The notes under the pieces were generated by a model. That model saw only the letters and a list, made by a program, of their open reading frames with translations, did no database searches and had not been told where the DNA came from. DNA of 5,314 nt, taken from NCBI GenBank assembly GCA_003445855.1, contig DMCG01000094.1:480-5793 (forward strand), given 5' to 3'. Origin of the DNA: Spartobacteria bacterium. Its GTDB lineage: Bacteria; Verrucomicrobiota; Verrucomicrobiia; Chthoniobacterales; UBA10450. Each line of letters begins with the position of its first letter. The stretch's first letter is position 1. Made by a program: the position numbers and the translations under genes. Positions 1 through 4,140 of this stretch are shown here, in pieces.

Positions 1-200
1 TCGGCTTTCAGGTTCGCGTTGTTCTCCGCGTTCGCGACCGCGCTCTTCAGCGTTTTGCCAATGAGAACCGCGGCTTTCTTCGGCGTAAACGCGAGCAGGT
101 CGAGCGCGGCCGAGACCGGCAGCCCCTGGATCTCGCGCGTGACTTCGCGCACCTTGAACGGCGAAATCCGCGCATACTTATATATCGATCTAACTTCCAT
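1..200 (-). CDS. rplV: Ribosomal protein L22 (uL22), N-terminal part, cut by the window edge
   Basis: The minus-strand reading from the ATG at 200-198 gives 66 full codons beginning MEVRSIYKYARISPFKVREV and continuing through GLPVSAALDLLAFTPKKAA and LKSAVANAENN. This is the typical start of bacterial L22, including the RISP.K.R.V segment and the SA..NAENN region. L22 is a large-subunit protein that binds 23S rRNA and lines the peptide exit tunnel with an extended hairpin; that hairpin lies beyond the window. The start abuts the stop of the upstream gene exactly (TAAATG), with no gap. I see no strong Shine-Dalgarno sequence before it (GTGTGAGTTTAAAATAA precedes the ATG), so translation probably depends on coupling to the upstream reading frame. 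The identity is clear even though only about 60 percent of a usual L22 is visible. Confidence 0.95.
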   Translation of the reverse strand, partial: MEVRSIYKYARISPFKVREVTREIQGLPVSAALDLLAFTPKKAAVLIGKTLKSAVANAENNANLKA

Positions 201-1037
201 TTATTTTAAACTCACACTCGAGTGGGCATCCACCTGGAGACGGTCGCCCACTTTTATTTTCTCTTTTTCAGAATCCATTTCTTGAATCACAGCGCCGCAA
301 ATTTGCTGCCGCACATCGACCACTCGCAACGTCGCGATCTTGCGCTCCCCGCGCATCACGCGCAGCGGCATTCCAATTTTCACGCCTTGCTTTTCACCGA
401 AGTTGCCGACCACGAACGACCACTCCTCCTTCACACTGATCACGCTGCCGTCCATCAAACTCGGCTGCGCGGAATTCGACGGCGGGCTTGTCGATCTTGC
501 CGCGAGCGCGTTCGTGCCGCGCAATTGCGCTTCCACATCCATGCGCGCCTGCGCATCACCGCCCTGAGAAGTTTTCAGATATCGCAGCATCGCTTCGTTC
601 AACCGCAGCATCTGATCGCGATACTCGTCGCGCTCTTTTTGGGCCAGCTGCAAATCGCTCACCGCGGTCAGGAGACGCTGTTCGATTTTTGCTCGATCTT
701 TGTTCGCTGAAGCCAGACCGAGCGCTTCCATGCGCAACTGCAAATCGGAAAACTTGCGCCGAAACAATTCCGCCTCGGCATTCGATTCCGCCAGGCTGCT
801 CGTCAACGTCTTGACCGATTCCTGCTGGATCGATAATTGCTTGCGCAGTTCTTCGTTCTGCGCCAGCAACGCCGCCGGGGTCATCCCGCCGTCGCGGGAT
901 TCCACGTTTTCAACTTTGGATTCTGACAAAGAACTGTTTCCCTCTGCCGCCAGCCCTCGAGCCAGCGTTACGCAGCCCACTAAAATCATTGCCGACTGCC
1001 GACTGCCGATTGCCGATTTCAAAAATCGAAAATCCAT
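201..1037 (-). CDS. Predicted exported coiled-coil protein with beta-rich C-terminal domain, inserted in the S10 operon
   Basis: This 278-residue product is not a ribosomal protein that I recognise. Residues 1-31 look like an export signal: basic residues R4, K7 and R13, a short hydrophobic stretch at 16-26, then either a lipobox-like L19-V20-G21-C22 or a signal peptidase I site near A31. Residues 55-157 are rich in Leu, Glu, Lys, Arg and Gln with heptad character and a probable break near 107-113, so a coiled coil is likely. Residues 159-196 form a Ser/Pro/Ala/Asn-rich linker. Residues 197-270 alternate hydrophobic and polar residues with Gly turns (SFVVGNFGEKQGVKIGMPL, later IKVGDRLQV). This resembles small SH3-like beta-barrel domains at the C-terminus of bacterial envelope proteins, though that match is from memory. 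The start is favoured by an AAGGTGG ribosome-binding site 7 nt upstream and by the TAATG overlap with rpsS. The stop touches the rplV start. The open frame and tight junctions indicate a real, expressed gene; its function is unknown. Confidence 0.85.
   Translation of the reverse strand: MDFRFLKSAIGSRQSAMILVGCVTLARGLAAEGNSSLSESKVENVESRDGGMTPAALLAQNEELRKQLSIQQESVKTLTSSLAESNAEAELFRRKFSDLQLRMEALGLASANKDRAKIEQRLLTAVSDLQLAQKERDEYRDQMLRLNEAMLRYLKTSQGGDAQARMDVEAQLRGTNALAARSTSPPSNSAQPSLMDGSVISVKEEWSFVVGNFGEKQGVKIGMPLRVMRGERKIATLRVVDVRQQICGAVIQEMDSEKEKIKVGDRLQVDAHSSVSLK
990..1017 (-). repeat. Four-copy 7-bp tandem repeat inside the inserted gene
   Basis: On the plus strand the heptamer TGCCGAY occurs four times in a row at 990-996, 997-1003, 1004-1010 and 1011-1017, ending in C, C, T and T. 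On the coding strand this is an (R)TCGGCA-type array, and it encodes residues 7-16 (KSAIGSRQSA), just before the hydrophobic part of the predicted signal. Short tandem heptamers of this kind usually sit between genes, in several phyla. At 28 bp (four units), a change of one unit would shift the frame. Confidence 0.85.
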
Positions 1038-1315
1038 TACTTCGCCACCTTCGCCGTGTGCGAACCGTGCTTCTTAAACATACGCGTTGCTGAAAATTCG
1101 CCGAGCTTATGACCGACCATGTTCTCGGTCACAAAAACGGATTGGAAAATCTTTCCGTTATGAACCAAAAACGTGTGGCCGACAAAATCCGGCGTCACCA
1201 TCGAGCGCCGCGACCAGGTCTTGATCGGTTTTTTCGCGCTCGCGCTGTTCATCTTGTCGATCTTCTCCAGAAGATGCGACTCGACGAAGGGTCCTTTTTT
1301 CAACGATCTAGCCAT
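1037..1315 (-). CDS. rpsS: Ribosomal protein S19 (uS19)
   Basis: The 92-residue product begins [19 protein letters not shown] and carries [23 protein letters not shown], then [13 protein letters not shown] and a C-terminal HGSHTAK. This is the full standard S19, the same length as the E. coli protein. S19 sits in the head of the 30S subunit next to S13 and contacts the tRNA region. I chose the ATG at 1315-1313 because the family begins [10 protein letters not shown]. An in-frame ATG at 1351 would add 12 residues ([12 protein letters not shown]) that fall in spacer repeat sequence and have no counterpart in the family. No clear Shine-Dalgarno precedes the chosen start (AATTTGATTTTTATG). The stop TAA shares its last A with the ATG of the next gene. 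Confidence 0.97.
1045..1051 (-). promoter_or_regulatory. Shine-Dalgarno sequence deciding the start of the inserted gene
   Basis: The minus strand reads AAGGTGG, followed by the 7-nt spacer CGAAGTA and the ATG at 1037. It lies inside the last codons of rpsS. It supports the upstream ATG over the in-frame ATG at 989-987 (residue 17), which has only tandem-repeat sequence before it. Confidence 0.6.
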
Positions 1316-1596: not shown

Positions 1597-2436
1597 TTAT
1601 TTCTTTCTTCCGCGCTCCAAAATGAAGCGATCACTCGGCTTGTGTTTGCTGCGTGTTTTAAATCCTTTCGCCAGTTGTCCCCACGGACTCACCGGATGAT
1701 GACGTCCGCCGCCCCCCTTTGATTTCCCCTGACCTCCGCCCATCGGGTGATCGATCGGATTCATCGCCATGCCGCGGACATGCGATCGTCGACCTTTCCA
1801 GCGCGTGCGTCCCGCCTTGCCGCTCGCGACATTCATGTGATCGACATTGCCAACCTGGCCGATCGTCGCGTAGGCGCTTTCGTGAATGCGGCGGATTTCG
1901 CCCGACGGCATTTTCACCAGCGCATAACCGCCTTCGCGGTTGTTCAACGTCGCTTGCTGACCGGCGCTGCGCGCAATTTGTCCGCCACGACCCGGCGCCA
2001 GTTCGATGTTGTGGATATTTGCGCCAAGAGGAATTGCGCGAAGCGGCAGCGCATTTCCAAGATCCGGCGCCACGTCCTCGCCAGCGGCGACGGTCGATCC
2101 AACGCGCAATCCGTCCGGCGCGAGAATATAACTTAGCTCACCGTCCGTGTATTTAATAAGAGCGATCCGGGCGGAACGGTTTGGATCGTACTCGATGCCG
2201 AGCACTTCCGCAGTCACGCCGCGCTTTCGGCGTTTGAAATCGATTTTGCGATATTTCTGTTTATGTCCGCCGCCGATGTGACGCGACGTGAGACGACCAT
2301 TGTTATTGCGGCCGCCGGTTCTCTTTTTCGGCTCAACCAAGCTCTTGGCCGGTTTCCATTTCGTAATTTCCTCGAAAGTAGGAAGCGACTTGAACCGCAG
2401 CGCCGGCGTGAGTGGGCGAAAACTTTTGAGTGCCAT
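1597..2436 (-). CDS. rplB: Ribosomal protein L2 (uL2)
   Basis: The 279-residue product is a full-length bacterial L2 (E. coli has 273). The N-terminal part holds [26 protein letters not shown], the OB-fold region carries [22 protein letters not shown], and the SH3-like region carries [10 protein letters not shown] and [12 protein letters not shown]. The C-terminal part has [11 protein letters not shown] at 225-235, followed by HPVSPWG and [13 protein letters not shown]2 is needed for subunit association and contributes to the peptidyl transferase region of 23S rRNA. The conserved Asp-His pair of this motif is present as D229-H230, but the second His, usual in E. coli (DHPHGGG), is Met232. The start lies 1 nt after the rplW stop, so coupling is likely; no strong Shine-Dalgarno is evident. 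A 281-nt spacer follows before rpsS. Confidence 0.98.
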
Positions 2437-4041: not shown

Positions 4042-4125
4042 AGGAAAGCAGGAAAGCAGGAAGAGATTTCATTCTTTTGATTGTCGATCTTAATCAAATC
4101 AACTTTCCTGTTTTCCTGCGTTCCT
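4042..4125. repeat. Long nested inverted repeat upstream of rplC
   Basis: The 21-nt arm at 4042-4062 pairs with 4105-4125 at 19 of 21 positions. Inside the 42-nt loop, TTTGATT (4076-4082) pairs with AATCAAA (4092-4098) around a 9-nt loop. In the transcript the 5' arm is purine-rich (AGGAA units) and the 3' arm pyrimidine-rich (TTCCTGC units), with mismatches only C-U and A-C. Confidence 0.8.
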
Positions 4126-4140
4126 GATTCCTCTGTTCCT
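4104..4140 (-). repeat. AGGAA polypurine repeat array after rpsJ
   Basis: On the minus strand, AGGAA begins at 4140, 4132, 4125, 4117 and 4109, spaced 8, 7, 8 and 8 nt apart. The first two units read GAGGAA and look like Shine-Dalgarno sequences. The opposite strand has three units starting at 4042, 4050 and 4058, which make the other arm of the inverted repeat. Segment 4104-4130 matches 1533-1559 at 24 of 27 positions. Confidence 0.75.

Follow-up and report, generated by a model that had tools for sequence, protein, structure and literature searches.

Few gene orders of bacteria are as conserved as that of the S10 operon, and the export genes secY, yidC and lepB occur in ribosomal operons. 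In Escherichia coli K-12, rpsS and rplV are spaced by 14 nucleotides (nt) with no gene in between. In a stretch of DNA of 5,314 nt from a Spartobacteria bacterium (assembly GCA_003445855.1, contig DMCG01000094.1, positions 480 to 5,793), hereafter the window, a gene for a protein of 278 amino acids (aa) is found between these two genes. This gene, referred to as X, resembles secY, yidC and lepB as an export-related gene inside a ribosomal operon. It differs from them in its place between rpsS and rplV, and its product has no match to a known translocase or peptidase family in Pfam.

Two described proteins were compared with the product of X. MreC acts in the periplasm together with MreB, MreD and enzymes of the cell wall. 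It is described as a rod-shape scaffold with a coiled coil for dimer formation and two six-stranded barrels (PMC8804602). Like MreC, X is predicted to combine an N-terminal membrane or signal segment with a coiled coil followed by a six-stranded barrel (Foldseek E 8.7e-4), whereas the model of X has one barrel and MreC two. FlgT is described as a component of the H ring of the Vibrio flagellum (PMC7693769). Its C-terminal domain (PF16538, FlgT_C) resembles the barrel of X, which has helices where FlgT has other domains. Because of this architecture and predicted fold X may be an exported, MreC-like scaffold of the envelope, and because of the gene order its supply may be tied to the S10 operon; to this reading we assign a probability of roughly 0.45. 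No report of a gene in the rpsS-rplV slot was among the matches listed when the open full-text literature was searched for the slot, the operon and signature proteins, a search that left aside subscription papers and supplements. In the part of the 2012 paper on molecular signatures of the Planctomycetes-Verrucomicrobia-Chlamydiae (PVC) phyla that was available, the sole signature protein reported is CT421.2 and not X (PMC3444138), and the available part of the Methylacidiphilum genome paper holds nothing on the slot (PMC2474590).

Gene X and its slot in relatives

Gene X occupies positions 201..1037 of the minus strand (ATG start, TAA stop at 201-203), as judged from its open reading frame (ORF) and from homologue loci. 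Base 1037 is common to its start codon and to the stop codon (1037-1039) of rpsS (S19; 1037..1315, minus strand, ORF and domain match). Its stop codon directly abuts the ATG (198-200) of rplV (L22), of which the N-terminal 66 codons lie in the window (3..200, minus strand, domain match). These ORF coordinates agree with the original prediction of a 278-residue gene joined to its neighbours by a 1-nt overlap and a 0-nt gap. An alternative start at M17 is possible, and several close relatives align only from about residue 17.

At an E threshold of 0.001, a protein search with X gave 4015 homologues; among the matches listed (120 of the 4015) none had a precomputed Pfam domain and the named ones were called hypothetical. 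Loci were selected by their match to the X protein, and gene position was checked only afterwards. The named ones among the loci of close homologues belong to Verrucomicrobia, Spartobacteria, Chthoniobacterales and Candidatus Udaeobacter metagenome-assembled genomes. The order rpsS-X-rplV was present in 44 of the 46 named-genome loci, so that the slot which the original prediction had proposed to check in Verrucomicrobiota relatives is indeed occupied by homologues; in the other two loci (L075, L077) the contig ends inside X and X-rplV is present. X was split over two frames in 3 of the 46. For other families of the order (L078-L101), rpsS lay beside X in 24 of 24 loci and rplV as well in 23, L089 having no L22 match. 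Both genes also adjoin X in L106, and neither was found at seven weak-match loci of the order (L102-L105, L107, L110, L111). At the level of the class, where some loci repeat genomes already counted, all 52 loci with E < 1e-19 (L118-L169) were in the slot. The same arrangement in independent genomes rules out an assembly error or chimera, and the homologues are widespread; the outcomes that were to speak against the original prediction, chimerism and homologues absent elsewhere, did not occur. A recent passenger is ruled out by the spread of X across relatives, and the lineage-specific passenger that had been considered earlier proved too narrow a description, since X is spread over the class and extends to families beyond it.

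The ratio of non-synonymous to synonymous substitution rates (dN/dS) between X and seven relatives was 0.06-0.25 in the helical region and 0.05-0.14 in the C-terminal domain (C-domain), which indicates that purifying selection acts on X. The filling of the slot goes beyond chance, because the same protein is there in many related genomes and dN/dS of these two regions is 0.05-0.25. For the signal region the ratio was 0.86-1.82 in six of the seven pairs and 0.45 in the seventh (17-33 codons). The spacing of X and rplV was determined at the 97 loci that could be used within the family and the order, some of which come from the same genomes: it was within -1 to +1 nt in 38, 2-60 nt in 25 and 61-132 nt in 34. 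The exact junctions of the original prediction thus hold in the window and fail as a general rule, and with such varied spacing translational coupling of X and rplV is not general either.

The phylum sample consisted of 194 genomes, all Verrucomicrobiota, and its counts of S19, L22 and X are those among the matches listed. Both rpsS and rplV were found in 112 genomes. They were colinear within 20 kb in 66 of these, and in the other 46 they lay on other contigs, on other strands or at a distance. Domain-to-domain spacing was at least 400 nt in 29 of the 66 colinear genomes, and X was present in all 29 (G185 and G258 among these by reading). It was below 400 nt (48-355 nt) in the remaining 37, and X was absent in all five that were read (G360, G067, G076, G193 and G338). 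X stood before rplV with rpsS listed elsewhere in 13 genomes (eight of f57, G345, three of f73, and G337). When loci were read for ten of these 13 and for G267, whose rpsS was not among the matches listed, X preceded rplV in 11 of 11 (L238-L248). Two further loci have X before rplV (L257 of G359 and L254 of G342), the X stop and rplV being one base apart in L254. In G316 and G342, rplV lies directly after X, and rpsS is on the same contig as X at more than 0.5 Mb; these splits are therefore not explained by a contig break. Because X stays before rplV where rpsS lies apart, the link of X to rplV has outlived that of rpsS to rplV.

Predicted architecture of protein X

The structure model of X consists of an N-terminal helix, helices 54-105 and 115-182, and a beta-domain at 196-270. 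On the minus strand of the window this corresponds to a predicted signal-peptide region (residues 1-33, 939..1037, with M17 as second possible start), a helical, coiled-coil-like region (residues 54-182, 492..878), a linker of low model confidence (residues 183-193, 459..491) and a predicted six-stranded, FlgT_C-like barrel (residues 194-272, 222..458). The predicted local distance difference test (pLDDT) score was mostly 85-95 in the helical region and 73-76 at residues 101-120. The final residues are missing or variable among relatives. The slot family is characterized by a gene position directly ahead of rplV, with or without rpsS on the other side, and by an N-terminal export or membrane segment. 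X of the window has the position and, by a simple hydrophobicity rule, also the segment. According to this rule the N-terminus is hydrophobic in 102 of 116 slot proteins, the window copy included, versus 0 of 323 ribosomal controls. This suggests that the N-terminus is signal-peptide-like and that X may be exported; the window copy has a lipobox-like LVGC at residues 19-22. The exported-looking coiled-coil protein with linker and small beta-domain that had been proposed earlier is in agreement with these predictions, and the fold prediction suggested at that time yielded the helices and the barrel.

Within the signal-peptide codons lies a heptamer array (ATTGCCG, 4.4 copies, window 988-1018), of which 33- and 27-base parts are found again at two other genome sites. 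Since the sequence of relatives differs at this position, the N-terminus of X may be rebuilt by short repeats.

No Pfam family reached the cut-off for X of the window (maximum E 10, most rows above 0.1 filtered out); the MreC domain PF04085, FlgT_C and the HlyD/membrane-fusion protein domains had no match at all among the rows given, and no NCBIfam family was listed. Neither scan gave a ribosomal or ribosome-binding family, so that a match to a ribosome-associated profile, the other outcome that was to count against the original prediction, did not appear for this X. Among 28 relatives one weak L21 match was present (E 0.0049). A weak NCBIfam match to MreC was obtained for 3 of 28 family members (best 8e-5), and FlgT_C matched at E up to 0.1 in 12 of 22 relatives (best 6.2e-5); the predicted structure of the C-domain has the FlgT_C-like barrel fold. 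X is not MreC itself, as MreC proper has a gene of its own at another place in all 20 genomes that were searched, among them that of the window.

Scaffold, passenger and other readings

As an MreC-like scaffold X would be exported and placed in the envelope, where its predicted long helices could pair it into oligomers and its C-terminal barrel could dock a partner. Being encoded within the S10 operon, X would be supplied in amounts that follow ribosome production up and down, by co-transcription and coupling to growth rate. An uncharacterised, exported-looking scaffold that is present in this operon across much of the phylum and is kept by rplV without rpsS speaks for a durable connection of the envelope with ribosome supply. 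In a bolder version, which we consider a long shot, X and rplV would form a phylum-wide two-gene unit. The exported scaffold would be produced in a 1:1 ratio to L22, a protein of the ribosomal tunnel, and would gauge or set how well envelope growth and ribosome assembly are matched; the operon would receive feedback from the export or saturation of the scaffold.

The slot proteins appear as a lineage in the C-domain tree, in which one branch separates 81 slot rows from 19 non-slot rows with a Shimodaira-Hasegawa-like approximate likelihood ratio test (SH-aLRT) support of 98. A second tree with 20 extra rows again parts 81 slot from 19 non-slot rows by one branch. Fifteen short forms, which have kept the signal segment and the barrel and have no coiled coil, make up one group (SH-aLRT 98), and their close homologues include Coraliomargarita and Lentimonas. 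All nine short forms among the class loci (L170-L178) are in the slot, and none of the nine other weak matches (L179-L187) is. Membership of the short forms in the slot family rests on position and tree. The non-slot proteins (L179-L187 and others) have, like X, a membrane segment, a coiled coil and the same C-domain (E 1.2e-18 against the slot family in hhalign). Unlike X, they lie away from rpsS and rplV and on the opposite side of the SH-aLRT 98 branch.

Several points weigh against a scaffold tied to the operon. The C-domain tree is based on 84 columns and a quick method with SH-aLRT support only, and 8 of the 20 added rows fall on the slot side of the second tree, two of them (L277, L278) preceding rplV. 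The profile match to the slot family is weaker for the short forms (E 1.1e-12) than for the non-slot proteins (1.2e-18), and among the class loci the non-slot L179 (E 2.8e-13) matches X better than every short form; the nine short-form loci were fetched for their short frames and the nine non-slot loci had longer ones. The tallies of X matches (87/98, 145/188 and 143/194) contain non-slot proteins. Non-colinearity in draft genomes can reflect a contig break. Among 40 genomes in which X adjoins rplV alone, 24 are class genomes for which rpsS was not among the matches listed and which therefore do not count as demonstrated splits; the same holds for 3 of the other 16. Finally, 16 relatives were chosen for no or weak X match: nine had no rpsS or rplV in the assembly, six had an empty slot (60-79 nt between the domains) with rpsS and rplV intact, and G063 had 603 nt in the slot with no recognisable X. 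Two 0.9-Mb genomes are also without X, of which G067 retains MreC (G067 and G076 were examined separately from the 16). Losses of X are common and, together with the copies split over two frames, bear on how dispensable X is. The simplest history is an early entry of X into the operon within the phylum followed by many losses; the segment may instead have been transferred.

These losses with rpsS and rplV intact are also what would be expected if X were an abundant envelope protein that simply uses the strong S10 operon, its position having no regulatory meaning. This tentative explanation is nearly as likely as the scaffold reading. It is consistent with the X-rplV spacing of 61-132 nt in 34 of the 97 loci and with relocation in one genus group (f57 g138), where the sequence fetched around six slot-lineage relatives (L271-L276) contains no match to rplV and a gene for an AcrB-type pump of the resistance-nodulation-division (RND) class directly precedes the X relative in three of five scanned loci (L271, L272, L274). 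However, the X-rplV neighbourhood is kept in the 13 genomes with rpsS elsewhere, and X is present in 29 of 29 long gaps, although G063, outside that set, has a long gap without it.

The same pump genes could indicate that X is a periplasmic transport adaptor akin to the membrane-fusion proteins of RND pumps. One homologue (P0299) is named AcrA in its source, and a MexC-like chain was matched weakly by profile (E 0.19). Nevertheless this is improbable, since no HlyD/lipoyl match was found for X of the window nor among the families listed (25 of 42) for 22 relatives, the helices are absent from the short forms, and the window has no transporter gene. Slightly less probable again is a leader-type regulator, in which translation or export of X would control L22 synthesis like secreted arrest peptides do. 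X does lie directly before rplV even with rpsS elsewhere, and within 1 nt of it in 38 of 97 loci. However, conservation resides in the helices and the barrel and not in the variable last residues, 34 of the 97 loci have the 61-132 nt gap, and 37 of the 66 colinear genomes have less than 400 nt, with X absent from each of the five read among these 37. The least probable candidate is a cytoplasmic or membrane-bound ribosome-associated factor, which would suit a place among ribosomal genes but neither the hydrophobic N-terminus that the ribosomal controls lack nor the absence of a ribosome-associated family match for X of the window.

The matching of envelope growth to ribosome number becomes approachable through X, a single gene open to deletion and tagging. 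For Verrucomicrobium spinosum a transposon essentiality map has been published, which is described as containing 100 essential proteins of unknown function (PMC12283558).

Other features of the window and related loci

Where X-rplV stands away from rpsS, tatC was seen directly before X in L239 and L257. At L256:268-2032 two non-slot proteins are encoded in tandem; they have a membrane segment, a coiled coil and the shared C-domain and represent a second, unexplained family of the phylum. When 10 proteins from four non-slot loci, two of them the non-slot proteins themselves, were compared with Pfam, no theme common to the neighbours emerged.

The source assembly of the window is 2.1 Mb and 73% complete. 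On the minus strand the gene order starts with what we take to be a truncated EF-G-like gene, rpsJ, rplC, rplD and rplW, and continues with rplB, rpsS, X and rplV; the identities of S19, L2 and L22 were checked. The gene rplB (L2), upstream of X in the operon, is located at 1597..2436 (minus strand, ORF and locus comparison). A run of 336 N lies inside rplV directly past the window end (L002:144 onward; window 1-3). A promoter scan of positions 1-2500 gave none, with 1.2 in shuffled sequence, and terminator-like sites in this region numbered 5 versus 4.0 expected. The spacer between rplB and rpsS (1316-1596, 281 nt) is the longest in the window and contains inverted repeats by eye. Octamer repeats of the TTTCCTGC type, on either strand, are present at 1533-1555, 4042-4062 and 4103-4126, which belong to two spacers between genes of this operon.
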